Assembly (NCBI RefSeq): GCF_017355785.1
Contig: NZ_JAFEWE010000010.1
Coordinates: 124,001-188,000, forward strand
Direction: 5' to 3'
Source: Desertivirga arenae
GTDB taxonomy: Bacteria > Bacteroidota > Bacteroidia > Sphingobacteriales > Sphingobacteriaceae
DNA length: 64,000 bases
In this document: positions 1,293 through 55,381 of the stretch, in pieces
Position numbering within the stretch: the first letter of the stretch is position 1
Layout: every line of letters begins with the position of its first letter
Position numbers and translations under genes: made by a program
The notes under the pieces: model-generated
Told to the model about the DNA's origin: nothing
Database searches by the model: none
What the model saw: the letters and a program-made list of their open reading frames with translations, nothing else

Positions 1293-2441
1293 TTACAACA
1301 GCCGCACTTCCTCTGGCCATTTATAGCTGCCAGGCTTAAGCGTAATGTGCAAGTTAGTAATTTCCTTCGCGCGACTGCGGACTACTCCTGTCGCAAATTC
1401 GTCAACGGGATAAAGTATTTTTATCCCCAGTTTGGCTAAAACAGAAAAAGCTGTAGATCCGCCTTCAATTAATAGCTCCGTAATAGTGGTCCGTTTAAAT
1501 AGCGCCTCTACAACCAGAGCCGTCCTTTCTCTAAGCTCCGGCGCTGCAATACCTTTCCCTAATGTACTTTCGGGATGAATAGCAATGATTGCAGTATTGT
1601 AGATGTTTAATTTATTTTCGATTTCAGTCGCCCATTCTTGTACCACATACTCCTCTGGCGATATATTATACAATGATGAAGGCATATAACTTACCAGTCC
1701 CTTATCATTTAATTGTTGAATTTCTAATGCTCTTTCTTTAAAGGCAGTACCTGAAATGAACAACTTTTTCGACATGCCCATTTCAGGTTCTTGTGGCAGG
1801 GCAGGCTTACTCTTATAAACCGTGTTTAAAAGAGCCTTAAAAAAGGCCGCTCCACCTGCTAAAAGAGCTTTAGAATTCGCAAATCCGGCCCAATGTTCGA
1901 TATCAACAAGAGTGGATGCTTCACCAATGTATATGCCTTTTTCCCCAACTTCTTCACCGTTTTTAAGAATATAAACATCAGAAACAGAGTTGTGAAGTAG
2001 ATCAGTAACCAAAGCTGTCTTAGCGGGAAACTCCGGATCTTCAGCAAATCCTGTTAAATGAATAGGCCTTCCATTAATAAAATATTCTCCATTTTCAATC
2101 GTCCTCCCTAAAGATGGATTAGCTGGCACCAACAGTGCCCTTTCAATACCTGTCGTTTCCATCTGCGCGCGCAACTCCGCTACCACATGACCTCTAAGAA
2201 CTGAGTCAACTTTCTTGAATAACAGCGATGGTTTTAGTTGAATTAAGGCTTTACTTACCCTATTAATATCACCAATAGCCTGTTTTTCTGGCTTAGAACG
2301 CGTATCTGTAGCAATCACGAGCAAATCAACTGGTGCAGACTCAGCAGAATCAAGACAGACTTCGACCCTCAATCCATAATTCAAGCCAATGCCTGCCAGT
2401 TCTACTGCCCCCGTTAAATCATCTGCAATTACTACGATCAT
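1293..2441 (-). CDS. dtnK: Four-carbon acid sugar kinase (DUF1537 family), candidate D-threonate kinase
   Basis: Cytoplasmic ATP-dependent kinase of the DUF1537 family, which phosphorylates four-carbon sugar acids at O4. The N-terminal sugar-binding domain opens with IVVIADDLTGAVELAG, the family's ADD-TGA signature, and the C-terminal nucleotide-binding domain carries LLIEGGSTAF near residue 325. The length of 382 residues is usual for the family. The next gene upstream in the operon is a PdxA2-type dehydrogenase. In characterised systems a DUF1537 kinase beside PdxA2 turns D-threonate into D-threonate 4-phosphate, which PdxA2 oxidises to dihydroxyacetone phosphate and CO2. The gene symbol rests on that pairing. 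L-threonate, erythronate and 3-oxo-isoapionate kinases belong to the same family, so substrate specificity is not proven. Confidence 0.8.
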   Translation of the reverse strand: MIVVIADDLTGAVELAGIGLNYGLRVEVCLDSAESAPVDLLVIATDTRSKPEKQAIGDINRVSKALIQLKPSLLFKKVDSVLRGHVVAELRAQMETTGIERALLVPANPSLGRTIENGEYFINGRPIHLTGFAEDPEFPAKTALVTDLLHNSVSDVYILKNGEEVGEKGIYIGEASTLVDIEHWAGFANSKALLAGGAAFFKALLNTVYKSKPALPQEPEMGMSKKLFISGTAFKERALEIQQLNDKGLVSYMPSSLYNISPEEYVVQEWATEIENKLNIYNTAIIAIHPESTLGKGIAAPELRERTALVVEALFKRTTITELLIEGGSTAFSVLAKLGIKILYPVDEFATGVVRSRAKEITNLHITLKPGSYKWPEEVRLL

Positions 2442-2503: not shown

Positions 2504-3541
2504 TTATGACGTTTTTCTATTCTTTGCCAATTGAACTGCTGATTCTATTGCTAAAATCATTGCATCGGGACTAGCCACTCCTTTTCCTGCAATCTCGAAA
2601 GCAGTACCATGGTCTACTGAAGTTCTGATAATAGGCAGTCCCATAGTGATATTTACTCCTTTTACACTGTCCATCTGCTGCTTTTCCGCATTCCATTTGA
2701 AACCAGTCAACTTAAATGGTATATGTCCCTGATCGTGATACATTGCTACAACTCCACCAAAGTAACCGGTTGCCGCTTTTGAAAACATCGTATCAGCAGG
2801 TACCGGACCTTCTACATCGTAGCCTCTTCGTTTCGCCTCCTCTACAGCTGGCAGGATCTCTTCGTCGTCCTCTGTACCAAATAAACCGGAGTCCCCGGCG
2901 TGAGGGTTTAATCCAGCAATACCTATTTTAAGATTTGGTTCCCCAAGACTGATAAGACCGTTGTGAAGCAGTTCCACTACTTCCAGAATTCTTTCTTTTT
3001 TAACAAGGTCACAAGCCTGACGAAGAGAAACGTGCGTAGAAACATGAATCACTTTCATATTCTCTTCCACCAGTAGCATTGCATACTTCTTTGTATTGGT
3101 ATAGTGAGCATATATTTCAGTATGTCCAGCAAAGTGATGTCCAGCCTCGTTTATCGACTTTTTATTAATCGGTCCGGTCACCGTTGCATCAACCTGCCCT
3201 TCAAGAGCCAGCTCAATAACCCTCTTTACAGCATCAAAAGATGCAGCACCTGCCATTGCAGATATCTCTCCGAATTTCAGTTCAGACAAATTAACGTTCT
3301 TCAGATCATAAACGTCGACAGTCCCAACTTCGAACTTGGCATCCTTTACTGATGATACCGGGTTTAATTTAGCATTCAGACTTAGTCTTTCAATGATATC
3401 CTGAAATACACCCGCATCTCCTATCAAAACTGGCTGGCAGATGGAATAAATTGATTCATTTAAAAGGGCTTTAATAGCGATTTCCGGACCTATACTAGCC
3501 GGATCGCCCATTGTAATACCTATGATCGGTTTTTCAGACAT
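2504..3541 (-). CDS. pdxA2: PdxA2-type 4-phospho-D-threonate dehydrogenase
   Basis: Metal- and NAD-dependent dehydrogenase of the PdxA family, 345 residues. MGDPASIGPE at residues 11-20 matches the conserved GDPAGIGPE region, and the metal-binding histidines appear as H170 (STH), H214 (NPHAG) and H269 (YHDQGH). Classical PdxA acts on 4-phosphohydroxy-L-threonine in vitamin B6 synthesis. PdxA2 paralogues next to DUF1537 kinases instead oxidise D-threonate 4-phosphate (or D-erythronate 4-phosphate) to dihydroxyacetone phosphate with loss of CO2. The kinase gene follows 62 bp downstream and the stop of the aldolase gene overlaps its start by 8 bp, so the catabolic role is preferred. No other B6 gene is nearby. 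Confidence 0.87.
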   Translation of the reverse strand: MSEKPIIGITMGDPASIGPEIAIKALLNESIYSICQPVLIGDAGVFQDIIERLSLNAKLNPVSSVKDAKFEVGTVDVYDLKNVNLSELKFGEISAMAGAASFDAVKRVIELALEGQVDATVTGPINKKSINEAGHHFAGHTEIYAHYTNTKKYAMLLVEENMKVIHVSTHVSLRQACDLVKKERILEVVELLHNGLISLGEPNLKIGIAGLNPHAGDSGLFGTEDDEEILPAVEEAKRRGYDVEGPVPADTMFSKAATGYFGGVVAMYHDQGHIPFKLTGFKWNAEKQQMDSVKGVNITMGLPIIRTSVDHGTAFEIAGKGVASPDAMILAIESAVQLAKNRKTS

Positions 3542-4472
3542 TTGATGATACGTTAAGTTGAATATTTTCTTTTTTGAAGAAGTCGGATAAAGTGTTTAAT
3601 AGTTTCACTTCAACATCTGCTGAAAGTGAAGTTAAAGGAGGCATAGCTACAGGTTGACATAGGCCGTACTGGTGCATAAGGACCTTCAAGGCCCAGAGCG
3701 ATTCGCCTAATGTCCCAATTCCTTGGTAGATCTTACCTAATTCATCCGACAGTTGTTGGTAATAATAAGCTTTCTCGTGGTTTCCTGCAGATACAGCTGC
3801 AGCCATATCGGTATATAAGCCCGGATGAAGGTTACCAGTACTTGGAATGAGCCCGTCACTACCATTGATCAAAGCGTGTGCTGACTTCGCAGCCCAACCA
3901 AGAAAATGGCTAAAATCAGCACGGCCGGACCATAGTCTCAAAGACTCATTTAACCTTTCTTCGCTTCGTTCCGAATCTTTTGTTCCTACAATGTACTCAT
4001 TGTGGCTAAGCTCGTCAATAAGAGAGAGCGGGATAGACATATGAGTAGTCCCGGGAATATTATAAATAATAACCGGAGCTTTGATCTGTTCCGCTAGCGT
4101 AAGGAAGTATGTTCTCATCTGCCCCTCGGTGAGAGCATAATAAGATGGAAGCGTTGCTGCAACCGCGTCAACCCCGGAATCGAAACAAAACTTTGCAAAA
4201 TCTATAGATTCTTCCACACAGTTGGAAGAGATCCCTGCGTAAAGCTTAGTTCCTGGCTTCTTATTTCTTACAGCTTCCCTCACATAGGCTTGTTTTACTG
4301 GTAAAGAAATGGAAGATGATTCTCCTGTTGTTCCTAATATAAATGGAAGAACATCATTTGAATACATATGAGAAAAAATATTCTCTACCCCTTGAGCGTC
4401 CAACTGATAACTGTCTGTAAGAGGGGTAACAAGAGGAACAATAATGCCCTGGTATTCTTTTAGTCTCGTCAT
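3534..4472 (-). CDS. DapA/NanA-family class I aldolase, candidate DHA aldolase
   Basis: Cytoplasmic TIM-barrel enzyme of the dihydrodipicolinate synthase/N-acetylneuraminate lyase superfamily, 312 residues. The GTTGES motif lies at residues 48-53, the catalytic tyrosine is Y137 in YNIPG and the Schiff-base lysine is K165 in GTKDS, so the active-site set is complete. Members reversibly split 2-keto-3-deoxy acids into pyruvate and an aldehyde. It overlaps pdxA2 by 8 bp and lies 1 bp after the iron alcohol dehydrogenase gene, so these steps are probably coupled. Cleaving 3-deoxy-D-lyxo-heptulosarate (DHA) would give pyruvate and D-threuronate, which the dehydrogenase could reduce to D-threonate. 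Lysine synthesis is unlikely in this context. The exact substrate is inferred. Confidence 0.85.
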   Translation of the reverse strand: MTRLKEYQGIIVPLVTPLTDSYQLDAQGVENIFSHMYSNDVLPFILGTTGESSSISLPVKQAYVREAVRNKKPGTKLYAGISSNCVEESIDFAKFCFDSGVDAVAATLPSYYALTEGQMRTYFLTLAEQIKAPVIIYNIPGTTHMSIPLSLIDELSHNEYIVGTKDSERSEERLNESLRLWSGRADFSHFLGWAAKSAHALINGSDGLIPSTGNLHPGLYTDMAAAVSAGNHEKAYYYQQLSDELGKIYQGIGTLGESLWALKVLMHQYGLCQPVAMPPLTSLSADVEVKLLNTLSDFFKKENIQLNVSSNV

Positions 4473-4473
4473 T

Positions 4474-5622
4474 TTAATAAGCTGACTTGTAAATTTCTAT
4501 TGCGTCTGATAGAGTGATCTCTCTCGGATTATTTTTCAACAAACGTTGCACCTTCATAGCATCTTCTGCCATTTGAGGAATAGAATCTTCAGGTATGTCT
4601 AATTCAGAAAGCTTTGCCGGGATACCACATTCCCTGATTATCTCCCTTATTTTCTCAATGCCTTTTAAAGCTGTTTTTTCAGGTGTTTCTTCCGGTGAAC
4701 AGCCTAAAGCGATAGCCACCTCTGCATATTTCTTCGGAGCGGCGATCATATTATATTGCATTACATAGGGTAGTAGCAAAGCATTAGATAAGCCATGTGC
4801 AAGGTGGAACATACTACCGAGCGGATAGGAAAGAGCATGGACGCCTGCAGTATTAACCGGACCAAGACAAAATCCTCCAAGTAAGCTACCCATTGCTACA
4901 TGAGTACGAGCTTCTTCATTCGTACCTTCTTTTACAGCAGTTACTATATTAGCCGCAATTAAACGCATTCCTTCAAATGCATACATATCTATAAATGGTT
5001 GAGAAAACTTATTAGTGTAAGCTTCCAAACAATGGGTCAAGGCATCAAGACCAGTAGCTGCAGTGATTGCCGGAGGAACCGAAATAGTTAATAAAGGATC
5101 AACATACACAGCATCGGGAACCAGAAAAGGACTGATGATACCTTTTTTCTGATTATCCGAGTCATCAACCAGAATTGCATTAGGGGATGCCTCACTACCT
5201 GTTCCAGCAGTGGCCGGTGCACAAATCAGTTTCTTATTCCTTTGCTTAAGATTTCCAATCCCAACAATTTCATTTAAAGACTGTGCATTATCTACTTGGG
5301 CGGCAAGAAGTTTTGCAATATCAAGCACGCTTCCTCCCCCTATACCGATAACTGTATCAGGATTAAAGCCCTTAACCTTCTCAAGCAAACTGTTAAAGTC
5401 GCTGAAAGAGGGCTCGGCAACAATACTTGTATCTAATTGCACCTCAAAACCCTTTTCCTCCAGCTTGTTTGTAAACTGACTTAACGAAGAAAGTAAGGGA
5501 TCAATAGTAACAATAAGGATTTTACTGGGACCAGTCTCAATAAGGTCATCACAAAGGATGTCCAAAGCTCCCTTTGAGAATATAAGCTTACCAGGGAAAT
5601 GTATTTTCAGTGCCTGCTCCAT
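4474..5622 (-). CDS. Iron-containing alcohol dehydrogenase (group III)
   Basis: Cytoplasmic NAD(P)-dependent oxidoreductase of the Fe-ADH family (FucO, GldA and relatives), 382 residues. The nucleotide-binding motif GIGGGSVLDIAK starts at residue 93, PATAGTGSE at 136-143 is the second family signature, and the metal ligands D193, H197, H262 and H276 are all present. The gene is packed 1 bp from both the aldolase gene and the sialidase-like gene. The neighbouring aldolase should release an aldehyde, so a reductase here fits conversion of a four-carbon aldehyde acid (D-threuronate) to the sugar acid used by the DUF1537 kinase. Lactaldehyde or another aldehyde substrate is possible, because the family is broad. 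Confidence 0.87.
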   Translation of the reverse strand: MEQALKIHFPGKLIFSKGALDILCDDLIETGPSKILIVTIDPLLSSLSQFTNKLEEKGFEVQLDTSIVAEPSFSDFNSLLEKVKGFNPDTVIGIGGGSVLDIAKLLAAQVDNAQSLNEIVGIGNLKQRNKKLICAPATAGTGSEASPNAILVDDSDNQKKGIISPFLVPDAVYVDPLLTISVPPAITAATGLDALTHCLEAYTNKFSQPFIDMYAFEGMRLIAANIVTAVKEGTNEEARTHVAMGSLLGGFCLGPVNTAGVHALSYPLGSMFHLAHGLSNALLLPYVMQYNMIAAPKKYAEVAIALGCSPEETPEKTALKGIEKIREIIRECGIPAKLSELDIPEDSIPQMAEDAMKVQRLLKNNPREITLSDAIEIYKSAY

Positions 5623-5623: not shown

Positions 5624-6763
5624 TTAATCTTGAGTTATTTCTCCATTTACAGGAGCCGTATAACCTTTCACCTTTGGCCAACCCCCCTTCTTTATTTTCT
5701 TCAATTTAAGCTGCGAAGGATCAATAACTGCATGCTTGATCTTCTGGCGGCGCCAGGTATACACAGCATGAAGCATTCCGTCTTTGGTCTGAATAATAGA
5801 AGGATATGAGTATTGACTTATTGGAGAGTCTTCGAAGATTGCAGCAGCATACCATTTTTTACCATCTTTAGAGATAGAAAGATTTAAAGGCGTACGTGGT
5901 CCTTTTGCTTCAGTTCCCGGAGGCAATACATGATTGTAGATCAGAGCAAAACGACCATCTTTCATTGCAACTGCATCAGTTCCGGAGTTGTTGTTAGGTA
6001 AAGTGGTTTTAGTAAGAGGCCACCAGGTTTCGCCATTATCATATGACCAGGACTCAAGAATTGCTCTGTTGCGACTTCTTGCGAGGATCTGCAATCTGCC
6101 ATTACCATGATCTAACACGCTTGGTTGTATTCCATTAATGTCTTTTCCTGCGTTAAGAGGACCAACCTTTCTCCAGGTCTTACCAAAATCAGGAGTGATT
6201 TCAAAATGGATCTGCCAGCTATTACCAGTTTTATTCCCTTCGGTGCTGGTAGGACAAATTAAATTCCCATTACTTAATAGAACGGGTTTATTCTTAACAG
6301 GACCAGTAAATCCTTCAGGTAAAGCCTTCTGCTCTGACCATGTTTTTCCATTATCAGCGGATGTACGCATATATCCTTTCCAGGTACCAGGACTTGCACC
6401 TATTTTATAGAATAATAAAAGTTCACCATTAGGAACCTGAAAAAGAACAGGATTCCATGTTGGATAACGTTTATCAGGCATAATGCCATCAGCTACTTTT
6501 TCTGGAGCAGTCCATTTTCCATTCTCCATACGGCAAACCCAGATGCAAACATCCGGATTTCGTTCCTTGGTTCCTCCAAAGAAAGAGGTAACCAACCCCG
6601 CCGGCGTCTCTGCAATAGTTGCAGAATGGCATTCCGGAAAAGGTGCTTTCTCATACAAAAATTCATCTACCAAAATTCCTTTTTTCCATGGCCTTGTTTG
6701 AGCATTCAGGGAAAGCGAACCGATAGAGATAGCTACAAAAGTTAGTATAGTTTTTAGTTTCAT
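5624..6763 (-). CDS. Secreted sialidase-like (BNR_2) beta-propeller hydrolase
   Basis: Exported 379-residue protein with an N-terminal signal peptide ending near LNAQ (about residue 22). Four Asp-box-like turns mark a sialidase-type six-bladed propeller: SADNGKTW, TPDFGKTW, SYDNGETW and SKDGKKW. The classical sialidase F/YRIP motif is absent; the equivalent region reads FPECHSATIAE, typical of the BNR_2 branch. True sialic acid is unexpected in a pectin locus. Kdo and DHA, the ketosidic 2-keto-3-deoxy acids of RG-II, are the nearest chemical relatives, and the genes for an aldolase, dehydrogenase, PdxA2 and kinase follow at once. I therefore suggest an RG-II ketosidase. A 111-bp gap separates it from the DUF3826 gene; I see no box or clear terminator there. 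Confidence 0.72.
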   Translation of the reverse strand: MKLKTILTFVAISIGSLSLNAQTRPWKKGILVDEFLYEKAPFPECHSATIAETPAGLVTSFFGGTKERNPDVCIWVCRMENGKWTAPEKVADGIMPDKRYPTWNPVLFQVPNGELLLFYKIGASPGTWKGYMRTSADNGKTWSEQKALPEGFTGPVKNKPVLLSNGNLICPTSTEGNKTGNSWQIHFEITPDFGKTWRKVGPLNAGKDINGIQPSVLDHGNGRLQILARSRNRAILESWSYDNGETWWPLTKTTLPNNNSGTDAVAMKDGRFALIYNHVLPPGTEAKGPRTPLNLSISKDGKKWYAAAIFEDSPISQYSYPSIIQTKDGMLHAVYTWRRQKIKHAVIDPSQLKLKKIKKGGWPKVKGYTAPVNGEITQD

Positions 6764-6874: not shown

Positions 6875-7585
6875 TTAGTTCTTCTTCTCGGCAGCTGCAG
6901 CAGCTTTCTTAGCTTTTAGTGCCGCTGTATAATCTTTGTACATCTGCTTCCAACTTCTCCCGTTGGCATTCAAAAACTGCTCGTTCTTTGTTTTGTAGAT
7001 CTCAAAGATTGCTGAGATCTCTGTCATATTCTTGAAATCTACCGCTTGCTCTCTAGCTTGCTTCAGGTTCTTAAGAATAGTTTCTTCTTCCTGAGCTGTC
7101 ATATTTGGAACGATCTCCTTATAAGCCTTCATAGTAAAAGCAACTTTCCCTATGGTATATTTATCAAGAATATCCTCAACCTGCTGTTCGGAAAGATCAG
7201 CCTTTAACCCTGTCATCAAGTCCTGATGCACGTTCTTTGGGATTGCTGAATCCGCAATCACTTGCCTTTCTAATTCTGACAGCTTATTTCCGCTGGCAAG
7301 ATTAATTCCAGGAGGAACATCTGCAGCAGAATGAGAGTTATGCCAGTCGCGCACAGCCTTAAGATGTATAGCAATAACTTGCTTTAAACGAGCTTCCTTT
7401 GCAGCATCATTTAAATTTAAAGATGATACCCATTCCGCAGCCTTACTCTCTACATCAGCATCTGACTTAGCTTTTGCCTCTGCACTCATAGGAGCTGTCT
7501 GCTTAGCCTGAGAAAATGCTGGAGACGACAATCCTGCTGCAGCAACAATTACAGCAGCAGTAAAAATTCCTTTTATAGTATTCAT
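6875..7585 (-). CDS. DUF3826 protein, secreted or periplasmic
   Basis: A 236-residue protein with a clear signal peptide (hydrophobic stretch about residues 8-22, cleavage near SPAFSQ). The rest is mostly helical, with a lysine-rich C-terminus ending KKAAAAAEKKN. It matches the DUF3826 family by recall: helical Bacteroidota proteins found in PULs and without a firm function. Its gene lies 21 bp downstream of the GH78 gene. A second member is at 38328-39023 beside the isomerase gene. Visible shared stretches include the AEEE/EEQ-Ile-Leu-x3-Leu-x-x-Ala-Arg-Glu region (TILKNLKQAREQA here, QILAWLTEAREHA there). No catalytic motif is evident. Confidence 0.7.
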   Translation of the reverse strand: MNTIKGIFTAAVIVAAAGLSSPAFSQAKQTAPMSAEAKAKSDADVESKAAEWVSSLNLNDAAKEARLKQVIAIHLKAVRDWHNSHSAADVPPGINLASGNKLSELERQVIADSAIPKNVHQDLMTGLKADLSEQQVEDILDKYTIGKVAFTMKAYKEIVPNMTAQEEETILKNLKQAREQAVDFKNMTEISAIFEIYKTKNEQFLNANGRSWKQMYKDYTAALKAKKAAAAAEKKN

Positions 7586-7606: not shown

Positions 7607-10342
7607 TTACATTTCTGAATTGAACGAGTAATCGCCTGATCCAACTTCCAGAACAACTCTGTTAGCTTCAGTTCTTAGCAGCTTAACTCCGTCAACCGTG
7701 CTTACCTTTTTATTTCCTTCTTTAACTTTATTTGCACCACCTGCGGGTATATAAACAATAGCTTTTGAGTTGGCTGGTATGGTTATATTCCAGGTAAATG
7801 TCTTACCTGATTTCTTCCAATCGCTCCTGATCTCACCTCGAACAGAGTTATAGCTGGCCTTAACATAGCTCAGGTCATTGATCATCTCCGGTCTCATAAT
7901 GATCTTCTTGTACCCTGCCTCCTCCAGATCGGATTTAATACCTGCCAAATTCTCATAATACCAAATCAACAGGTCACCCAACATCATCACGTGGTTCTGT
8001 GAATTCATTTTCGGATTTGCGGTATTACCATTCCAAAGCTCCCAGATGGCCGTGGCGCCATTCTCTATCATGTATCCCCAGGAGGGATAAGTTTTTTTGG
8101 AGGCAATGGTATAGGCAAGATCTGCTCTGCCGATTTCAGAAAGAGTTCTCATGAGCCACTGCACACCTATTAATCCGGTACTCAGGTGACCGTTATTTTT
8201 ATTAATAATGGAAGCTATCTGTGCAACCACCTTATCCTTATTTTCATCCTCAACAATTCCAAATGCTACCGGAAGGATATTATCAGTAAGCGTATTTTCA
8301 CCGTAAAACCCATCCTTATGATAGAACCTCTTGTTGAAGACTTCTTTTGATCTGGCAGCCATTGCTGTAAAACCAACAATATCCTGGTCCTGACCTGCAA
8401 GCTTAGCAAAACGTATCATCAGGTTATTTACATAATAGTCATAAGCCGTGGCAATCAGTGCACTTGGATGTTTCTGATCCGCATTAACACCTCTTCCTGC
8501 TTCCGCACTTACCGGAGGCACACACCAGTCGCCATAACTATCTTTAGTCATAACCCCATCAGCATCCAGATAGCGCGACTCCATATATTGAAGCCACTTC
8601 TTCATTGCAGGGTAGTTGTTTCGGATCACTTCCTTATCTCCTGTCTGGCGGTAAAGCATATCAACAACCAGATGAAGAGTTGAAGGCCAGGTCATATTAT
8701 CACTGTAGTAACGCCAAAAGGCGGGTGCAACATCAGGAATGGCTCCGTCCGCCTTTTGAGAGTACCTTATATCGTCAGCCCATTTATTATATAAGGCAGT
8801 ATTATTAAAAAGGAAACTTTCTCCATAAGATACCGTCGAGCGATCTCCTAGCCATGGCTGACGTTCATTCCGTTGCGGGCAATCAATCGGCATTCCTTTA
8901 TAGTTTGAGGCAATACCCCACCAGGAGTTACGGTGTATTTGATTGAGAAGAGCATTCGAAGATTCAAATTTTCCTACAGTTGCCAAGTCATCATACACAA
9001 AGCGGGCAGTAAAGTCTTTTTGAGTAGGTGTTCCGGGATAACCGCTAACTTCAACATATCTAAATCCATGAAACGTAAACCGTGGTTCCCATGCCTCATT
9101 CCCCTCGCCTCTTAGTATATAAGTATCGGTAGTTTTAGCATCCCGAAGGTTTTGAATAAAAAGGCTTCCATCAGCATTCAAAGATTCAGCGAATTTCAAG
9201 GTAAGCTTTCGGCCTTTCTCTCCCTTTACCTGAAGTTTAACCCATCCGGCCATATTTTGACCGAAGTCAATTATATAATTACCATTGCTTCTTTTTTTGA
9301 TAGATACGGGAGCAATACTTTGCATCACCTTCATGAACTCATTTTCCTGAGGCTCGTAAGTCCCCCCTGGTTCCTGAACGTATTCTGCAGGCAGCCAATT
9401 CTTTTCGTCGAAACCAGGCTTGTCCCAACCAGAAAATTCTTTCCGCGCATCATACTCCTCGCCATCGTACTCATTATTCGCTAAAATTGGTCCCTCAGCT
9501 GTTCCTTTCCATGATTCGTCCGTTTTAATGATTGCAGAGGTTCCATCTTTATATTCGATATTAATTTGCATTAACATCTTCGGAAAACCGAAAGTCTTTA
9601 TTTTATAAGGCTTGGCCTGACGCATTGCAAAAAAACGTCCGTTTCCTAAGATAACTCCAATTGCATGCTTTCCTTGTTTAATAAGAGGAGTGACATCAAA
9701 CGCATTGTATTTAACATTTTGGGTATAGTCTGTAGGTGCCGGAGCAAGTACCTGGTCGCCTATTTTCCTACCATTGATTGAGAGCTCATAAAGTCCTAAT
9801 CCAATGATATATGCTGTTGCCGACTTTACTTCTTTATTTACAGCAAATTCTTTTCTGAAGTACCTTGCTGATAAGCGATTTTGATCCTCATTATCCCATG
9901 GAAAATACCGATCAAAACCTATCCACCGACCTTCCCAATCTTTATAGTTCAGTAAGCCCGTTCCGAACGAGGCTGTGCGACTCCAGGCCGATCCGCCTTT
10001 GTTCGTCCAAACCCTAACCTTCCAGTAATATTTGCTTTTCGTCTTAAGTGGCTTACCTGCATAGGTAATATTTGAGGTAGCATCAGAATTTACTTTTCCC
10101 CTTGACCAAAGATCTCCCTGACCATCGGCAAGTTTAAGAGAATCAGAAGAAACTGATATCTCGTAAGCCTCCTGCATAATTCCCCTTCCTTTAGCTACAA
10201 CCTGCCAGCTAAATCTTGGCGTATTACTAGAAAGAGCGAGAGGATTTGCCATCAGGTTACACCGCAGATTTTCTACGGAAACCTGTGCTTTAGTCGCAAC
10301 AAAAGACGAAGCAAGGAACACTAAAAGAATAAGCTTCTTCAT
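7607..10342 (-). CDS. GH78 alpha-L-rhamnosidase
   Basis: Exported glycosidase of 911 residues, with a signal peptide ending around VATKAQ. The domain order is typical of GH78: N-terminal Fn3-like domain (SVENLRCNLMANPLAL), rhamnosidase N-domain (YIIGLGLYELSINGRKIGD), an (alpha/alpha)6 barrel, and a C-terminal beta domain. The active-site region shows IDCPQRNERQPWLGDR, containing the general-acid glutamate, followed later by GYMIENGATAIWELW. It would remove terminal alpha-L-rhamnose from RG-II side chains. The gene lies 4 bp downstream of the GH2 gene and 21 bp before the DUF3826 gene. The family call is firm; which rhamnosyl linkage it cuts cannot be read from the sequence. Confidence 0.93.
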   Translation of the reverse strand: MKKLILLVFLASSFVATKAQVSVENLRCNLMANPLALSSNTPRFSWQVVAKGRGIMQEAYEISVSSDSLKLADGQGDLWSRGKVNSDATSNITYAGKPLKTKSKYYWKVRVWTNKGGSAWSRTASFGTGLLNYKDWEGRWIGFDRYFPWDNEDQNRLSARYFRKEFAVNKEVKSATAYIIGLGLYELSINGRKIGDQVLAPAPTDYTQNVKYNAFDVTPLIKQGKHAIGVILGNGRFFAMRQAKPYKIKTFGFPKMLMQINIEYKDGTSAIIKTDESWKGTAEGPILANNEYDGEEYDARKEFSGWDKPGFDEKNWLPAEYVQEPGGTYEPQENEFMKVMQSIAPVSIKKRSNGNYIIDFGQNMAGWVKLQVKGEKGRKLTLKFAESLNADGSLFIQNLRDAKTTDTYILRGEGNEAWEPRFTFHGFRYVEVSGYPGTPTQKDFTARFVYDDLATVGKFESSNALLNQIHRNSWWGIASNYKGMPIDCPQRNERQPWLGDRSTVSYGESFLFNNTALYNKWADDIRYSQKADGAIPDVAPAFWRYYSDNMTWPSTLHLVVDMLYRQTGDKEVIRNNYPAMKKWLQYMESRYLDADGVMTKDSYGDWCVPPVSAEAGRGVNADQKHPSALIATAYDYYVNNLMIRFAKLAGQDQDIVGFTAMAARSKEVFNKRFYHKDGFYGENTLTDNILPVAFGIVEDENKDKVVAQIASIINKNNGHLSTGLIGVQWLMRTLSEIGRADLAYTIASKKTYPSWGYMIENGATAIWELWNGNTANPKMNSQNHVMMLGDLLIWYYENLAGIKSDLEEAGYKKIIMRPEMINDLSYVKASYNSVRGEIRSDWKKSGKTFTWNITIPANSKAIVYIPAGGANKVKEGNKKVSTVDGVKLLRTEANRVVLEVGSGDYSFNSEM

Positions 10343-14629: not shown

Positions 14630-16474
14630 CTAATTTCCCTTTGTAACTAAAGATTTGATAAAGAATGAAGCACCATCTGCTGGATCTCCTGCCTGTGGCA
14701 AGGATTCGTGCATAGGATCTGTTGGTGTATCCGCATCCGGGAATCTTCTGGTATCTCCAGTTCTGAAGCTAATCCTTGAAATTTCAGCAACAGGTGCAAA
14801 GAAAATACCTGGCATTTTCTTTCCATTTATATCCAGATTATAGAATCGCCTGTCTGTATCAAGATCAACTTTAATAGTATAGCTCTCACCTGCCTTATAC
14901 TGAATAACATTTCTATTCCTATATCCTGCTTTAGTTGTAAAGTTTGCAGTTGAGTCAAACTGAAGTCTTATGGCAGGTGTACCTTTTGAGTCGAGGAACT
15001 CTATATCCAATTGCCCTTTGTTATTTTGCTGAGGCACGACTGTGATCTCAGCAATTAATCTTTTGCCTGATGGAACAACACGTTCAGCTTTTGCATATTC
15101 GTAACGATCCTTATCAGAAAGCAGCAGTGCTTTCGCACCGTCATTCATTTTGCTGATACTAACAGGTGCCCATTTAGGACTATACGTGTTCCAAAGATCA
15201 AGTTCTTTTCCTGCCGGCATCTGAGCAAATACTTCATTTGGATAAGTTGTTACCTTATCAGTAACAGGAACCGGTACGGAGCTCACCCATATGTCTTCCT
15301 TATTCATACTGTACGTAAGCCAAAGCTTTCCATCTGATGGAGATCCATTTCCCTCTTCCATACCACGTACATATTGAGGGCCATAAGATTTATAGTTACC
15401 TCCGTAACGCATCGGACTGATTTCGCCGTTCACCAATAACAAATTGTTGTAGTTCAAACCATCCTGACTAACAGATATAGCTAATGGCCAACGAAATTCT
15501 GAAGGGTTGTATACTGTTGCATATTTCCCGTCAGACGTTTTTTGTCCCCAGATTTTTGCATTGCTATTTACAAATTTAGGAGCCCTTGTAGGGTTGTACT
15601 CCCAGGTTTTACCGTTGTCTTTGCTAATGCTTGTTAAAGCATTCTTCCACAAACCAACTACCCTCCCATCAGGCAAATGATAATAGCTAAACGCCTTAAC
15701 CTCTTTCTTTAGAGGAATCAAAGGGTCATTTCTGTCAGCCTCTTCAACCCATTGCTGCATCATCAGAGGCGTAGCAAGTAGTTCATTACAAGCTTCTACG
15801 AAGCCCTTATCTTTACTTTTCGTGTAGAAAGGAAACTCTGATTTACTTTTATCCCAACTACTGTTGTACCTGATGAAATAAATAGGACCGAAACTCCCGT
15901 CCTTTTTGATTTCGCGTACAGCCCGCCCCATCCCCTTCCCGTCATTCGGATCATCCTTCTGATCCATGGCAATACCATAATACGCTAAGACCAGAAGTCT
16001 GTTTTTCTTTGAAGTAAAGAAGCCCATCCGTTGATGCATCACTGCATAAAGATCTTTAGCAACTCCAGGATAACCTTCTTTTTTCCATCCATCTGGTACT
16101 TTTACTACAGGAAAGATTACAACAGGCTTAGACCAGTTATATCCGTCCTTAGACGTGTGCAGAAGAGATTGGCTCGGAGGAATATGTTCACCTACAGGGT
16201 CACTAAGGTATTCCAGATAAAAAGTATTATTCCAATGAGCGATCATTGGAGCATGATTGTATGTCCAGCTAAATCCATCCGCCAGTTCTGGATGCTGGCG
16301 GTTTGCTCTGAAAACCTGAATACTATGTACACCTACCGCAGGACTTAATTGCCCATGATGGTAATCAACATTAGATAGTGTAGTTCCTGTATATCGAACA
16401 GTATCTTGTGCATTCGCTGCAACAAAAGCTGCTGCTAATCCTAAACTTAAACCTATTCTATTAACTAAATTCAT
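14630..16474 (-). CDS. Secreted BNR-type beta-propeller protein, likely glycoside hydrolase
   Basis: Exported 614-residue protein with a signal peptide ending near FVAANAQ. Several propeller-type turns are visible: LLHTSKDGYNW, SISKDNGKTW and SVSQDGLNY, spread over about residues 60-420. The C-terminal 170 residues look like a jelly-roll or LamG-like beta domain (LIAEITVVPQQNNKGQLDIEF). I do not recognise the exact family. Sialidase-like propeller proteins in pectin loci include hydrolases and lyases. Its position between the GH43-like and acetylesterase genes, with spacings of 1 and 0 bp, makes a role in RG-II side-chain removal likely. It differs clearly from the shorter sialidase-like protein at 5624-6763. 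Confidence 0.65.
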   Translation of the reverse strand: MNLVNRIGLSLGLAAAFVAANAQDTVRYTGTTLSNVDYHHGQLSPAVGVHSIQVFRANRQHPELADGFSWTYNHAPMIAHWNNTFYLEYLSDPVGEHIPPSQSLLHTSKDGYNWSKPVVIFPVVKVPDGWKKEGYPGVAKDLYAVMHQRMGFFTSKKNRLLVLAYYGIAMDQKDDPNDGKGMGRAVREIKKDGSFGPIYFIRYNSSWDKSKSEFPFYTKSKDKGFVEACNELLATPLMMQQWVEEADRNDPLIPLKKEVKAFSYYHLPDGRVVGLWKNALTSISKDNGKTWEYNPTRAPKFVNSNAKIWGQKTSDGKYATVYNPSEFRWPLAISVSQDGLNYNNLLLVNGEISPMRYGGNYKSYGPQYVRGMEEGNGSPSDGKLWLTYSMNKEDIWVSSVPVPVTDKVTTYPNEVFAQMPAGKELDLWNTYSPKWAPVSISKMNDGAKALLLSDKDRYEYAKAERVVPSGKRLIAEITVVPQQNNKGQLDIEFLDSKGTPAIRLQFDSTANFTTKAGYRNRNVIQYKAGESYTIKVDLDTDRRFYNLDINGKKMPGIFFAPVAEISRISFRTGDTRRFPDADTPTDPMHESLPQAGDPADGASFFIKSLVTKGN

Positions 16475-17432: not shown

Positions 17433-18830
17433 TTACAAACTATCTAATATCAACACCCAGTCATTCCCATCCTTCTCCTGGCCGGGAGGATTAAATTCCT
17501 GCACACCTTTATTTGAAAAGTTACCGATAAGGCTAGTTTGTCCGTTCCTTGGATTATACCAGGAGGCCTTAACTTTTGATCCGGAAATCTTACCCATGTT
17601 TACAGGAATATTCCTCCCATTATAGGTGTAGACGAAAGCATAATTCTTGCCTCTGGTAGCAAATAAACGGTTGTATTTTTCCCCTTGAGTTCCAGCAATT
17701 AAATTCTGGTCAGGAACGCGCTCGAAGAAAGGTCTGGATAACATTAGTTTCTTAAGATAGATCATTTGCTGAGCTCCTGGATTATTAATAGCAGTTTCCC
17801 ACAATTCCTTAGCACCATATGCACTTCCTTTATCAGATGATTTAAGGAACTGCATAACAGAATTATTACCGTACGTATAGCCAAAAGCACCTGCAAAAAC
17901 AGACCAGTATCCGTAGCGACGAACATCGTAGTCTTTCCACCTGATTTCCAGCGTATCATGCAAACCTTGAGGAATACCTTCGTAAGAAGGCTCAGAATCT
18001 ATAGTTGGTTTAGTAGGTTTAAGCTTATAATCAGCTTCCACAAACTTCCAGTTATCTTCACCATAATGGTACTTCTCTTTAGCTGTAGTATCCTGATCAT
18101 ATCGGCGATGTCCGGATTGGAAAGAGTTAAAGTCTAACCACTTTTCATTATGAAACCATTCAGAAGAAGGAGTACGGCCACGAGGGTGGTAAGTAATCAA
18201 ATGGCTATTGTCCAGGTTATTAATTGTATTTCCAATTGTATTCCAAACAGCAGTTGAATCACTTCCGGAGATATCTCCCCCATTCATCCAGATAATATTA
18301 GATTTTGCCTTGTAGCGATTGGTAAGGAATGTTGCATAAGCTTTTGCCTGCTTGGAATTAACATGGCCTTCCTTCACAACAGATCCCCACACCGGTACCA
18401 TTGCCATGTATAAACCTTTCTTTTCAGCGAGGTTAACAATGTAATCCACATGATCCCAGTAATCGTATTGTTTAGGATCAGCAGCATTAGCGCCTGTGGT
18501 AATGTTTGGACGTGTTATATCTTTCCTGATCAAAGCTGAATCTCCGTAAGCATTTACTTCAGCAATGTCATGGATCACCATTACCTGTATCACATTGAAC
18601 CCTTGTTCTTTGCGCACTTGCAAAAACTTCTCTGCCTCAGCACGGGTTAGTTTGCTGAACAATAGCCAACCCGTATCCCCTAGCCAAAAGAATGGTTTAG
18701 TACCCTGTTGGATGTACCTTTTATTTGCCGATACTTTTAATGGCCCAGTTTGCTGCGCTTTTAAACTTACTGTACTTAAAACAGCTGCTGCTGCCAATAG
18801 AACGTATTTACTTAAAATTTTCAATTTCAA
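17433..18830 (-). CDS. GH140-type apiosidase (DUF4038 family)
   Basis: Exported 465-residue enzyme, signal peptide ending near VSLKAQQ. The DUF4038 barrel is typical: KPFFWLGDTGWLLFSKLTR at 45-63, IIWMNGGDISG around 179-189 with candidate catalytic Asp186, and PTIDSEPSYEG around 275-285 carrying the candidate catalytic Glu. The C-terminal 90 residues form the usual small beta domain (KASWYNPRNGQTSLIG). The best characterised member, BT1012 of Bacteroides thetaiotaomicron, is an endo-apiosidase that cuts the apiose link attaching side chains A or B to the RG-II backbone. Apiose occurs mainly in RG-II and apiogalacturonan, so this gene is the strongest sign of the locus's substrate. It lies in the operon with gaps of 21 and 3 bp. 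Confidence 0.85.
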   Translation of the reverse strand: MKLKILSKYVLLAAAAVLSTVSLKAQQTGPLKVSANKRYIQQGTKPFFWLGDTGWLLFSKLTRAEAEKFLQVRKEQGFNVIQVMVIHDIAEVNAYGDSALIRKDITRPNITTGANAADPKQYDYWDHVDYIVNLAEKKGLYMAMVPVWGSVVKEGHVNSKQAKAYATFLTNRYKAKSNIIWMNGGDISGSDSTAVWNTIGNTINNLDNSHLITYHPRGRTPSSEWFHNEKWLDFNSFQSGHRRYDQDTTAKEKYHYGEDNWKFVEADYKLKPTKPTIDSEPSYEGIPQGLHDTLEIRWKDYDVRRYGYWSVFAGAFGYTYGNNSVMQFLKSSDKGSAYGAKELWETAINNPGAQQMIYLKKLMLSRPFFERVPDQNLIAGTQGEKYNRLFATRGKNYAFVYTYNGRNIPVNMGKISGSKVKASWYNPRNGQTSLIGNFSNKGVQEFNPPGQEKDGNDWVLILDSL

Positions 18831-40738: not shown

Positions 40739-40846
40739 AATTTCTTTAAAACTACGCTCCTTTGTAACACTTTGGTTGCATTAGATCGTACAATAAAACG
40801 GTTGAGTGTAAGTTTATAATTTTGCGTTGTTATCCTATTAACTCAA

Positions 40847-40911
40847 CAAAGTTGCAGAAACAGCCGACCGGAAATCTGTTGTTTTTTATCAATTTAGTGT
40901 AGGATTTTAGC
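40847..40911 (-). promoter_or_regulatory. Regulon box and -7-like element for the isomerase gene
   Basis: Half-site GCTAAAATCCTACA, 7-bp linker, weaker half-site GATAAAAAACAACA in gene orientation (40911-40877). CAACTTTG, one mismatch from TAnnTTTG, lies exactly 22 bp on at 40854-40847. The box sits between the divergent isomerase and regulator genes. Confidence 0.78.
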
Positions 40912-40930
40912 ATGAGTAAGATTCTTTTTT

Positions 40931-40938
40931 TACATTTG
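40931..40938 (+). promoter_or_regulatory. Candidate -7 element of the araC-type gene
   Basis: TACATTTG matches TAnnTTTG on the plus strand, 81 bp before the regulator start. Its expected -33 region would fall at about 40905-40912 and overlap the upstream half-site of the isomerase box. A regulator bound there could therefore affect its own transcription. Confidence 0.45.
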
Positions 40939-41018
40939 AATCTGTAGCCAATAAAAGTATACTGTTTTTGATTTTGTATTATCTTTTCACAGATAGTCTA
41001 TGTTAGATTATATCAACT

Positions 41019-41909: not shown

Positions 41910-41957
41910 CCAGGCTGCATGAAATTTTTCCGAGAATCCAAATCGATAAGGAAGTTA

Positions 41958-42230: not shown

Positions 42231-42256
42231 TTTTATCGCGTCGGATGGCCCGGCTA

Positions 42257-43189
42257 TTAGATAGCTACTCTTAAATCCAAATCGTTCTGCAGGCGATTGT
42301 AATTCGTGTAAAGCACTTCAATCTCATTAGTGATCGCTGGTGTGAAAGTACCTACTTTTCTCCGCGTAAAAGTTGAAATATTTAGTCCCCTTTTTTGTAA
42401 AAAATACTTCGAAACAATTGGGTAAACGTTGTGCATCACATCCATGTTTTCGATAAGGAACTCCTGCACCCGTTGCACTTCATTTGCCAAGCCGGGTTCG
42501 TTATAATTATCGCATAACCAGACAATCAATTCCGGGAAATAATTGCCCTGTATGCAGGAAAGACCAGCAGAACCAGCTTTAAGGGAATCAACTGCATGAA
42601 CCATATAAGCATCGTAAAGGCCAAACTTATGCCCTTCGGTCAAAGCTAGTTTCTCTTTAATTTGATTGATATCAAGACTTGTATCTTTATGATAAATCAC
42701 CCGGCCCGTAGATACAAAGCTCTGTAATTGAGTTGGAGATAGTAATCTTTTATAAGGCACCGGACACTCATAGAAACCAACAGGAACGTCATCCGTTGCA
42801 TTCAACAAATCAAACACCCTTTCATTAAACACCTCATCAGGTTCATTTTCGGCAGCTAATAAGCTGGTAATTAAAATTACAGCTTCGGTGCCCTGATCAT
42901 TTACTTTCTTAACAAAGTCTGCCTGCTCAGCAATAGGCCCACCAAAGGTTCCTGTAGCAACCACAGGCACTGCACCATCTACAACATTTATTACGTGCTT
43001 AATTGCATCAATTCGTTCTTTATCAGTCAACTCAAACATCTCGCTCGAGAGACAATTCGCAAATAGCCCTTTTGACCCTGCCTCAAGATACACTTCAGTG
43101 AGCTTGGTAAGTGCATCAAAATCAATACTTCCATCATTATTAAAGGGCGTGAGCATCACCGGGATGAACCCTTTTTGTGAGTTTTCCAT
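42257..43189 (-). CDS. DapA/NanA-family class I aldolase 2, candidate Kdo aldolase
   Basis: Cytoplasmic aldolase of 310 residues from the same superfamily as the protein at 3534-4472 but of another branch. The usual GTTGE motif is replaced by ANCLSSEMF (residues 44-52). The catalytic tyrosine (Y140, FYECPVP) and the Schiff-base lysine (K168, YHKDTS) are kept, so aldolase chemistry is expected. The gene follows the symporter gene by 77 bp and shares its box-controlled promoter. Transporter-plus-NanA-type pairs usually handle 2-keto-3-deoxy acids. RG-II holds two of these, Kdo and DHA. With an isomerase able in principle to use D-arabinose nearby, Kdo (giving pyruvate and D-arabinose) is my preferred substrate, as inference only. 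Confidence 0.83.
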   Translation of the reverse strand: MENSQKGFIPVMLTPFNNDGSIDFDALTKLTEVYLEAGSKGLFANCLSSEMFELTDKERIDAIKHVINVVDGAVPVVATGTFGGPIAEQADFVKKVNDQGTEAVILITSLLAAENEPDEVFNERVFDLLNATDDVPVGFYECPVPYKRLLSPTQLQSFVSTGRVIYHKDTSLDINQIKEKLALTEGHKFGLYDAYMVHAVDSLKAGSAGLSCIQGNYFPELIVWLCDNYNEPGLANEVQRVQEFLIENMDVMHNVYPIVSKYFLQKRGLNISTFTRRKVGTFTPAITNEIEVLYTNYNRLQNDLDLRVAI

Positions 43190-43266: not shown

Positions 43267-44820
43267 TCAGGCCCTTCTCCGGATCCTGGTGAAGAATACA
43301 CCTGCCAGGAAAATTGTAAGAGTGCCTATTACTATGATCATGTTTTTGTGAAGCGGACTTTTCAAGTAATCATAATCCGCGGGAATACTATTTGAGAACG
43401 TCATCCAGATGATAACCAATATTCCGATAATCGTAGCTATTAAAGCTTCATGATTTTTACTTTGTTTACTAATAATTCCCAAAAGGAACAAACCCAGCAT
43501 ACCGGCCGCAAATATTCCAGACAGCTCCCACCAAACATCCAATATACTTTTAACACCTATCATTGCTATTCCTGCTGCTAATCCTAAAAATCCAAATACT
43601 ACGGTAGCAAGGTGTAAAAGCCTGAGATTAGCTTTCTCATTAAGATCATGCTTTAAGTATCTTTTATAGATGTCTACAGAAAATACGGTAGCAGAAGCAT
43701 TCATTCCTGAGCTAATAGTGCTCATTGCTGCAGATAATATGGCGGAAACGATCAATCCGACCAGACCTGCGGGAATTTTAGTGACCATAAAATGAGGCAT
43801 GATCTTATCTCCGTAATCGCCAGGCTGTAAACCCGCAGCAATTGTAGCAATATCCGCCTTCGAAGCTCCTATGCCAGCTCTTTCAACGGCCACTTGCTGC
43901 CTTATTGCTTCGATAAATTCAGGATGCTGCTGATAGTAGGCAAACAGGCAAGATCCTATAATGAAAAACAACAAAGATGCAGGAACATATAACCAGACAC
44001 AAAGCCAGATAGACTTTGCCGCTGCTCCTGATGACTCGGCTGTATGATACCGCTGAATATAGTTCTGATCCATCCCGAAGTTATTCAGGTTGATAAAGAA
44101 TCCATAAAGAAGAATCACCCAAAAGGAAGATTCAGTGAAGTTCATCGAGAAACTTCCCAAGCTGAACTTATCATTTGCCTTTCCGATTTCAACGATTTTA
44201 GAAACGCCGCCCGGCATCTCTGTAATAATGATATACAGAATCAGAATAGCCCCAAGGGTTTTAATCACTGCCTGGACAACTTCCGTCCAGATGACTGCTT
44301 CAATCCCACCTAGTACAGTATAAATTATTATTACGATGCCCATAATGATCATGATCAACTGCATTGAATAGCCCGTAAGTGCTTGTAAGCTAAGAGCAAT
44401 ACCGAAGAAAATAGATCCCATGCGCGCTAGTTGGGTCAGAAGGAAACAGACTACTGCATAAGTACGGGCCCATGCACCGAAACGGTGTTCAAGGTGTGTA
44501 TAAGCAGAGATCTCACCCGTGCTACGATAAAATGGTACAAAATATTTTGAAGCAACCCAGGCCGCCAAAGGCATCGATATACTAAAGACAAAGGCATTCC
44601 AATTACCTCCGAAGGCTTTACCCGGAACCCCGAGGAAAGTATTACTACTTAAAAATGTAGCGTAGATTGACATTCCAATTGCCCATCCCGGTATAAGTCC
44701 CGACGCTTTGGTAAATTGTTCAGCATTTTTATTTTTTCTTGAAAAGTAGATTCCTACCAATACCATCGCTACGAGGTACAGAAGTATAACTATTAGATCG
44801 AAAACTGGCAGGCTTTTCAT
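43267..44820 (-). CDS. Sodium:solute symporter (SSS family) 2
   Basis: Inner-membrane transporter of 517 residues with about 13-14 predicted hydrophobic helices and the SSS patterns GLIPGWAIGMSIYATFLSSNTF near residue 40 (split here: GLIPGWAIGM, SIYATFLSSNTF) and GGIEAVIWTEVVQAVIK near 170. It heads a two-gene operon with aldolase 2 and carries the regulon box only 38 bp before its start. By analogy with sialic acid transporter-NanA pairs it should import the aldolase substrate. It is related to the incomplete symporter at 1-1272, which is linked to another aldolase, so the locus seems to hold two parallel import-and-cleave modules. Confidence 0.92.
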   Translation of the reverse strand: MKSLPVFDLIVILLYLVAMVLVGIYFSRKNKNAEQFTKASGLIPGWAIGMSIYATFLSSNTFLGVPGKAFGGNWNAFVFSISMPLAAWVASKYFVPFYRSTGEISAYTHLEHRFGAWARTYAVVCFLLTQLARMGSIFFGIALSLQALTGYSMQLIMIIMGIVIIIYTVLGGIEAVIWTEVVQAVIKTLGAILILYIIITEMPGGVSKIVEIGKANDKFSLGSFSMNFTESSFWVILLYGFFINLNNFGMDQNYIQRYHTAESSGAAAKSIWLCVWLYVPASLLFFIIGSCLFAYYQQHPEFIEAIRQQVAVERAGIGASKADIATIAAGLQPGDYGDKIMPHFMVTKIPAGLVGLIVSAILSAAMSTISSGMNASATVFSVDIYKRYLKHDLNEKANLRLLHLATVVFGFLGLAAGIAMIGVKSILDVWWELSGIFAAGMLGLFLLGIISKQSKNHEALIATIIGILVIIWMTFSNSIPADYDYLKSPLHKNMIIVIGTLTIFLAGVFFTRIRRRA

Positions 44821-53842: not shown

Positions 53843-55381
53843 TTAGATTTTCGCTTTAATTTTCTTAAGTCCATTGCTTTTTGCGATTTCCTTTCCATCG
53901 GCAAAAACTCTGAATCCCTTACCTTTTCCGTATTTTTCTCCTGTTTTATCCCAAAGAATGGTCATGATCTTTCCATGGTAAAGAACTTTATCCAGACAGA
54001 ACCAATCCCACTGATTCTGAGGCAGCAGTGGATTAATTTCTAACTTATTATCAGGACGGGGTTTTAATCCAACCAAGTCACTGATGATAATGTCAGCAAA
54101 GGTTGAGTGATTATAAAACTTACTTCTAGGATTATCTCCTTTCAACCATTCTCCGGTTTTTTCATCCTGATATTCTCCCAGGTAGATCTTGCCATTCATT
54201 TGATGTGACATAGCGTATTTATGAACCTCATTATAAAATACCTGTCTGTTCATACCATCCTGATTTTTGTAGTTATTAAGCAGGTTGGACAAGCCCTTTA
54301 ATGTCTGACTGGTAGCGAAAGGCCAAACAGCACCGTCCCACTCGCAACCGTGACCGGAGCCATGTGTTCTGAATAAGGGGTGACGTCTTTCGGCTGTTGT
54401 AATACCCCATGGCGCATTAAAACCGGCAGTATCAGTTAAAGATTTCCATTGGTCAGCGTATTTCGCTTTATCTTTCGGAAGGTTGAAATACCATGGTATA
54501 AAACCGATTGCTTCGCGGGCATCACACAGACCACCTTTTTCATATTGTACTTTATAGAAAGAAGCTGTATCATCCCAAAGTTTGTCGTTCACAAAATCTC
54601 TGAGGAAAGATGCTTTTTTATCGTACTTTCTTTTTAAACTATCGTTGTTACATAGGGCAGCCATCGCCGACAAAGCCTTGGCATTGCCATACATATAACT
54701 ATTGATTGTAGGGCGAACATTCTTTTCCTTTCTGCCTCCACTGATAGATTCCTCCATCGCATCGCGAACATCGAATTGCCAGAAGGTATTATCCGGGTTC
54801 ATCTTTTCCTTCTCCCATTTAGAATAATCGGCATTAAGGGTCAAAAGATTTTTTTCAATAAAAGATTTGTCTTTATTTACTAAATACCGATTGTATACAG
54901 CATCGTCAATCCAACTGCTAAAAGCATGAAAGCGCTGAACTTTCCAGGCAGGATCGATATATAACCAGAAGTTGATATAGTCATTAATATACTGTTGATT
55001 TAACAACCAACGGCCCTCGTAGATATGGTGCCCCAAACCGCTGCTGATGGCGTTATACTTTCCGGCGTGGTTTGCCTGGGTAATAAATTCAGTAAAAATA
55101 AAACCTTCAGGTGTTTGCTTCAGGTGTTTTCGAACAGCCCACCAGCGATAATAATAAACCTCCTGAATAGCAGAATCAGGGCAATCAAACAATGGGATAT
55201 TTTGAGAAAGCCATTCCAGTGACTGAGCATTAGGCACATGGTTTTTCACAGCTTCGTCATCAATGGAATTGAAGTAGTTAACGTACTTGCTTAATTTTTC
55301 AGTGGTTAAAATATGAGCTTTTTGCGCCGAGAGTATCCCTGCATTTAGCATCAGCAAAAAACCTATAAGAATTCGTTTCAT
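53843..55381 (-). CDS. GH142-like (alpha/alpha)6-barrel glycosidase
   Basis: Exported enzyme of 512 residues, signal peptide ending near GILSAQ. It looks like an MGH1/GH142-type helical barrel: VYYYRWWAVRKHLKQT near residue 75, LGHHIYEGRWLLNQQYINDY near 115, SSWIDDAVYNRYLV near 155, and CEWDGAVWPFATSQTL near 345. The acidic residues D158-D159 in SSWIDDA and E349-D351 in CEWDGA are candidate catalytic positions. GH142 is known from the C-terminal domain of BT1020, a beta-L-arabinofuranosidase acting on RG-II. Here the domain stands alone, without a fused GH143 part. Family assignment is from recalled pattern and should be confirmed. Confidence 0.72.
   Translation of the reverse strand: MKRILIGFLLMLNAGILSAQKAHILTTEKLSKYVNYFNSIDDEAVKNHVPNAQSLEWLSQNIPLFDCPDSAIQEVYYYRWWAVRKHLKQTPEGFIFTEFITQANHAGKYNAISSGLGHHIYEGRWLLNQQYINDYINFWLYIDPAWKVQRFHAFSSWIDDAVYNRYLVNKDKSFIEKNLLTLNADYSKWEKEKMNPDNTFWQFDVRDAMEESISGGRKEKNVRPTINSYMYGNAKALSAMAALCNNDSLKRKYDKKASFLRDFVNDKLWDDTASFYKVQYEKGGLCDAREAIGFIPWYFNLPKDKAKYADQWKSLTDTAGFNAPWGITTAERRHPLFRTHGSGHGCEWDGAVWPFATSQTLKGLSNLLNNYKNQDGMNRQVFYNEVHKYAMSHQMNGKIYLGEYQDEKTGEWLKGDNPRSKFYNHSTFADIIISDLVGLKPRPDNKLEINPLLPQNQWDWFCLDKVLYHGKIMTILWDKTGEKYGKGKGFRVFADGKEIAKSNGLKKIKAKI

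Follow-up and report, generated by a model that had tools for sequence, protein, structure and literature searches.

A sialidase-fold protein partnered with GH78 in an RG-II locus of Desertivirga arenae as a probable chain-C Kdo exo-hydrolase

Rhamnogalacturonan II (RG-II) is a pectin glycan of plants with a highly complex structure, and nearly every bond in it calls for a dedicated enzyme in gut and soil bacteria. Chain C carries the pair Rha-Kdo and chain D the pair Araf-DHA. PMC12282258 gives Rha as the terminal sugar of chain C and Araf as that of chain D, with Kdo and Dha as the acids that bear them, and does not pair sugars and acids plainly. PMC11214529 counts 'Kdo hydrolase (GH33)' and 'rhamnosidases (GH78)' as enzymes of RG-II breakdown, and PMC9120202 gives Kdo hydrolase as a GH33 activity. 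Our literature search found no paper with the phrase GH78-GH33. The published RG-II Kdo hydrolase is presumably a GH33 module joined to GH78 in the RG-II loci of B. thetaiotaomicron. We take the structure 5mqr to be B. thetaiotaomicron BT1020, made of a GH143 half (DHA hydrolase) and a GH142 half (arabinofuranosidase); its N-terminal propeller, GH143, presumably acts on a 2-keto-3-deoxy acid of RG-II.

We analyzed a 64,000-nucleotide stretch of Desertivirga arenae DNA (the window). The window is an RG-II locus, with genes for a GH140 apiosidase, GH78, GH2, GH95 and GH28 enzymes, and SusC/SusD-type proteins. The apiosidase (17433..18830, minus strand; PF13204, 2.2e-112), which we take to be CAZy GH140, is an RG-II marker. 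The two halves of 5mqr are encoded by two separate genes, both on the minus strand. One is GH143, the DHA hydrolase half of BT1020 that acts on chain D (14630..16474; PF24067, 1e-125; residues 21-607 of 5mqr, 1.4e-223). The other is the GH142 half, the chain-D beta-L-arabinofuranosidase (53843..55381; residues 624-1100 of 5mqr, 6.1e-165). In two Bacteroidales genomes, the GH143 and GH142 halves are joined in a single ORF about 1,110 aa long.

The gene at 5624..6763 on the minus strand encodes a 379-aa sialidase-fold (BNR_2) protein with an ATG start. We propose that this protein is probably an exo-hydrolase of RG-II chain-C Kdo that works in partnership with GH78. Its only domain is BNR_2 (PF13088; 1.4e-87, 294 bits against a cut-off of 31.4). 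At E up to 0.001 it matched only itself within its own genome, and it matched no NCBIfam profile. An AlphaFold2 model (pLDDT 85, 24 sequences in the alignment) is predicted to be a six-bladed propeller like that of GH33 sialidases, and nearly the whole propeller superposes on solved sialidases. Comparison of the model with C. perfringens NanI (2bf6) gave a VIA Z of 36.9 and an rmsd of 2.2 over 311 aligned residues, with 17% identity. Foldseek returned 593 matches at E up to 0.001. The top match was 5hx0, a Dyadobacter protein of unknown function (E 1.0e-15), and sialidases came next.

The PF13088 match and the NanI-like predicted fold bear out the first-pass annotation of this gene as encoding a sialidase-like protein. 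That annotation also counted four Asp boxes, which is generous. Three strict boxes ([ST]xDxGx[ST]W) are present, at residues 135, 190 and 240, and the chance level is 0.001 per shuffled sequence (20,000 shuffles). The fourth, SKDGKKW at residue 298, is one residue short of the strict pattern.

We found that GH78 is the usual partner of close relatives of this protein. In the window, a GH78-type alpha-L-rhamnosidase (7607..10342, minus strand; 6i60 alpha-rhamnosidase, 4.2e-186) is encoded upstream of the BNR_2 gene, with a gene for a DUF3826 protein (6875..7585, minus strand; PF12875, 1.4e-64) between them. We defined close relatives as the best 80 of 595 confirmed loci, with flanks of up to 10 kb. 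In 19 of these 80, GH78 and BNR_2 are parts of one ORF, GH78 first, and the window GH78 is 49-54% identical to the GH78 domains in those fusions. A further 46/80 have a GH78 gene ahead of BNR_2 on the same strand, either overlapping it or no more than 1.5 kb away. GH78 was thus fused or just upstream in 65/80 close relatives, and the other 15 stretches had none that reached 45% identity, our threshold for a GH78 gene; tblastn with a length filter gave the same 65 and 15. The fusions include the Bacteroides and Dysgonomonas relatives (L072, L110 and L063), which are 56-64% identical. One ORF (L104:6233-11851) joins GH140, GH78, BNR_2 and a TIM barrel in 1873 aa; lengths given for ORFs in relatives are counted between stop codons and are hence upper bounds.

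The GH78 counts are based on BLAST. Iterated neighbor profiles spread the GH78 label to every BNR_2 ORF, because fused ORFs had entered the profiles, and the SSF label likewise spread to GH28-like, MGH1-like and esterase-like ORFs. These profiles were used solely for the order of genes after BNR_2 and for the Fe-ADH label. DUF3826 genes occur twice in the window (6875-7585 and 38328-39023) and in 25/80 close-relative loci (best 80 of 595), and DUF3826 is fused N-terminally to BNR_2 in L102 and L103.

More divergent relatives had other neighbors. Neither GH78 nor GH143 was found in the 15-20 kb stretches around 20 divergent loci (0/20; repeated by tblastn), a selection picked for lower identity (35-50%). 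Two divergent BNR_2 genes with no GH78 nearby (L117 and L118) adjoin genes for a DHDPS-family aldolase and an SSF carrier, a hint that keto-acid sugars may be a theme of the wider BNR_2 family. In a tree made with IQ-TREE, the window protein and the 19 GH78 fusions fell in one clade of 88 rows (support 100/99). Sixteen of the 104 rows lie outside this clade, among them three of the 80 close loci (L105, L107 and L109). The alignment omits L001 (the window's own copy), the near-duplicates L007, L010 and L011, and L015, L022 and L026, which are partial or have internal stops. The tree therefore lacks four clade genomes (L007, L010, L011 and L026). Two BNR_2 relatives are broken by an in-frame stop (G238:C3:572489-573571 and G249:C1:3295295-3296326).

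We compared the active-site positions with those of GH33 sialidases, in which a glutamate pairs with the nucleophile tyrosine. Two alignments were used, one of profiles against NanB and NanC, the other made with hhalign against a YRIP-bearing Bacteroides sialidase (L143). Conservation was scored over 104 sequences (the window protein, 80 close-relative loci and 23 others). His46, Glu67, Asp71, Asn104, Lys120, Glu175, Gln213, Arg229, Asn277, Arg290, Tyr320 and Arg339 were unchanged in 104/104. The F/YRIP motif, which holds the first triad arginine of GH33, had no match anywhere in the protein. As had been noted at first pass, FPECHSATIAE stands in its place (residues 42-52), and His46 occupies that spacing in 104/104. 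His46 lies 10 residues ahead of the turn glycine, the same spacing as that of the RIP arginine in the YRIP sialidase. It also lies 25 residues before Asp71, and according to PMC11525138 the acid/base of NanI is Asp291, 25 residues after Arg266. By this spacing Asp71 corresponds to the acid/base aspartate of GH33.

The remaining positions aligned with varying agreement. The second triad arginine is Arg229 in both alignments. For the third, blade order and the alignment with the Bacteroides sialidase point to Arg290, but against NanB and NanC it lies four residues past their arginine, which makes this assignment less firm. Tyr320 falls at the nucleophile position in the NanB/NanC alignment (hhalign is off by one residue there) and is separated from the Asp-Gly turn by 8 residues, as in the Micromonospora sialidase. 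Gln213, 16 residues before Arg229, aligns with the Tyr-pairing Glu of NanB and NanC (hhalign has a gap there). The tyrosine is therefore kept and its glutamate partner replaced by Gln in 104/104. Because the site residues are invariant in all 104 sequences, absence of RIP is a trait of the sampled family and not decay. In this sialidase-fold site, two catalytic positions are replaced, and uniformly so over the 104 sequences.

Two features that define GH33, the RIP arginine and the glutamate partner, are missing from this protein, so we do not file it as a GH33 sialidase. We place it in the BNR_2 clade of RG-II loci and expect it to act in the manner of a GH33 ulosonidase. A true sialidase or a Kdn-ase would have the same fold, but neither of those two residues is present, and the gene lies in a plant pectin locus; we consider that reading extremely improbable. 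A propeller that only binds, aiding GH78 without catalysis, would account for the two altered positions and for the GH78 fusions. We think this very unlikely, since acidic, Tyr and Arg residues are invariant over the 104 sequences and copies unfused to GH78 are common (61/80 close relatives).

Replacement of two GH33-defining positions by His46 and Gln213 in all 104 sequences also means that the chemistry of the family may not be that of GH33. The altered site might act on a different acidic residue or a different linkage within RG-II, or it might work by a different chemistry, for example elimination. The same two replacements occur in divergent relatives that have varied neighbors and neither GH78 nor GH143 nearby, which is consistent with this idea. 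However, the protein retains the Tyr, the Asp and the second Arg of sialidases, and fusion to GH78 indicates a Rha-capped acid. We therefore regard an altered chemistry or substrate as unlikely, and a Kdo exo-hydrolase as the better reading. Two positions near the Tyr320 motif differ between groups of relatives. Residue 317 is Gln in 87/88 sequences of the RG-II clade and Glu in 15/16 divergent relatives; residue 338 is Arg in 85/88 of the clade and variable in divergent relatives. From these patterns, both are possible specificity positions.

We found that the clade occurs together with the RG-II gene set. Among 296 Bacteroidota genomes, GH143 was present in 15/15 clade genomes and in 2/281 others (Fisher p 2e-23). 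A clade genome was one with a BNR_2 relative at 55% identity or more, and GH143 was counted from matches above the family cut-off (17/296, with 3 weaker matches ignored). Counted by genus, which was the sole adjustment for kinship, GH143 occurred in 9/9 genera with the clade and 2/131 without it (p 1e-12). Two genomes just below the threshold were uncounted, G249 (53%, interrupted frame) and G162 (52%; its locus, L016, is outside the clade), and neither is among the GH143 genomes; with G249 included, 15/16 have GH143. In one Bacteroides genome (G297), PF13088 matched two places, namely the GH78 fusion and the GH143 region. Genome G298 has one additional BNR_2 protein, a weak one, and G296 has two, including the YRIP sialidase, so the GH78 fusion is not the sole candidate for the Kdo hydrolase in G296.

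The BNR_2 gene directly precedes a putative DHA operon. It is followed on the same (minus) strand by genes for an Fe-dependent alcohol dehydrogenase (Fe-ADH; 4474..5622; PF00465/PF25137) of the proposed DHA pathway; a first DHDPS-family aldolase (3534..4472; PF00701, 5.2e-39; GTTGES and GTKDS motifs in the translation), the proposed DHA aldolase; a PdxA-type dehydrogenase (2504..3541; PF04166, 1.4e-103), proposed to act on 4-phospho-tetronate; and a DUF1537-type four-carbon acid kinase (1293..2441; PF07005, 3.5e-34; PF17042, 1.1e-06). Gaps after Fe-ADH are 1, -8 and 62 bp, and the gap of 1 bp reported earlier between the BNR_2 and Fe-ADH genes is correct. By pathway reasoning, the operon fits DHA chemically because retro-aldol cleavage of DHA leaves a four-carbon aldehyde acid.

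The protein might then hydrolyze the DHA ketoside of chain D and feed the adjacent operon directly. Besides the 1-bp gap, two results speak for this. A DUF1537 gene lies within 10 kb in 15/80 close relatives (best 80 of 595), and a DUF1537 relative (E up to 1e-15) was found in 2/15 clade genomes compared to 4/281 others, a weak association (p 0.03). However, the remaining 13/15 clade genomes had no DUF1537 relative at that E value, and DUF1537 is more strongly tied to GH143 (3/17 compared to 3/279 genomes, p 0.003). In G033, 650 kb separate the BNR_2 gene, which is part of the RG-II cluster (L157), from the DHA operon and its SSF carrier (L156). G031 has the operon and GH143 together within 20 kb (L155), and a search at E up to 1e-20 found no relative of the BNR_2 gene in that genome. 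Chain D is already covered by GH143 and GH142 in the window, and the fusions that we found are to a rhamnosidase, with none seen to an arabinofuranosidase. We consider direct DHA release unlikely.

The first-pass annotation had taken adjacency to the DHA genes as a clue to the substrate, and this clue proved weak: Fe-ADH directly follows the BNR_2 gene in only 5/80 close relatives (L033, L038, L049, L051 and L053; best 80 of 595). With direct adjacency this rare and the operon accompanying GH143 in G031, we rejected as the main reading a DHA substrate deduced from adjacency. The more general proposal of that annotation, an exo-hydrolase for Kdo or DHA ketosides, is well supported overall. The GH78 fusions (19/80) and the separate GH143 and GH142 genes point to Kdo and not to DHA. 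We favor Kdo over DHA because the fused or adjoining GH78 fits chain C while GH142 and GH143 cover chain D.

Based on these results we suggest how chain C might be processed. The neighboring GH78 would first remove the terminal alpha-1,5-L-rhamnose. The BNR_2 exo-hydrolase, which may be exported given an N-terminus that looks signal-like by eye, would then cut alpha-D-Kdo from the chain. On the model of sialidases, Asp71 would serve as acid/base and Tyr320 as nucleophile, with Gln213 in place of the Tyr-pairing glutamate. Arg229, Arg290 and His46, perhaps joined by Arg339, would grip the ulosonate carboxylate.

Free Kdo may enter through an SSF sodium:solute symporter (43267..44820, minus strand; PF00474, 1.5e-42), and a second DHDPS-family aldolase (42257..43189, minus strand; PF00701, 3.4e-27) may split it. 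An SSF carrier 69-75% identical to this one follows the GH78-BNR_2 fusion in L066, L068, L074, L083 and L094. Homologs of the aldolase (39-44% identity) are found in 8/80 BNR_2 loci (best 80 of 595), and its possible role in Kdo cleavage is proposed from gene proximity and about 40% identity. A second SSF carrier, after DUF1537, runs outside the window. We infer an economical pairing of two ulosonic acids with two hydrolases, two aldolases and two SSF carriers. In the window, a match to the L-fucose isomerase C-terminal domain (39134-40738), an AraC regulator (41019-41909), and the second aldolase and SSF carrier (42257-44820) are clustered, and the cluster at 39134-44820 could handle Kdo and D-arabinose.

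A TIM barrel often accompanies the BNR_2 gene. Of the 80 loci (best 80 of 595), 56 encode a xylose-isomerase-like TIM barrel (PF01261) no more than 10 kb away; in 21 it is directly downstream, and in 11 it is fused C-terminally to BNR_2 (L063, L077, L098, L100, L104 and 6 others). In the genome analyzed here, such a gene lies 1.8 kb outside the window (G000:C1:121389-122192). By eye, its product has a twin-arginine-type leader. Its fold is that of a ketose 3-epimerase (UlaE; Z 27.2, rmsd 2.6, 252 aligned), and phmmer against PDB sequences gave nothing up to E 1. A ketose epimerase-like domain joined to a glycosidase is unusual. We put forward, tentatively, that these BNR_2 proteins are a distinct branch of the sialidase superfamily, with a His-Arg-Arg triad and a Tyr/Gln pair adapted to ulosonic acids, such as Kdo, that present their carboxylate differently from sialic acid. 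In RG-II eaters, the protein could then be one station of an assembled periplasmic line in which an apiosidase, a rhamnosidase and the Kdo hydrolase are joined by an exported TIM barrel resembling ketose epimerases, which would convert the released keto-sugar acid before it is taken up.

With Kdo as the proposed substrate of the clade and DHA as that of GH143, there are two clear, testable assignments across Bacteroidota. An annotation of these BNR_2 proteins as sialidases may mislead. The window protein shares with the GH33 sialidases NanI, NanB and NanC the six-bladed fold, Asp boxes, the Asp (by spacing), the Tyr and the second Arg, and, in one of the two alignments, the third Arg. It differs from them in having His for the RIP Arg and Gln for the Tyr-pairing Glu, and it is only 17% identical to NanI. 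Like GH143 of BT1020, it is a propeller that is elsewhere fused to the enzyme uncapping its substrate. However, GH143 is a separate family (PF24067), which was absent among the profile matches of the BNR_2 protein; the one PF24067 match of the genome is another gene, and the window GH143 gene matches BNR_2 weakly (2.3e-08). The closest likeness is to the 'Kdo hydrolase (GH33)' of RG-II breakdown, for which the Bacteroides GH78-BNR_2 fusion is the natural candidate. The two are alike in fold family, RG-II gene set and partnership with GH78. The window protein differs in being unfused to GH78, with DUF3826 between them and the DHA operon downstream. The Kdo hydrolase step is already assigned to GH33 in print, and the window protein would be a further member of that known kind.
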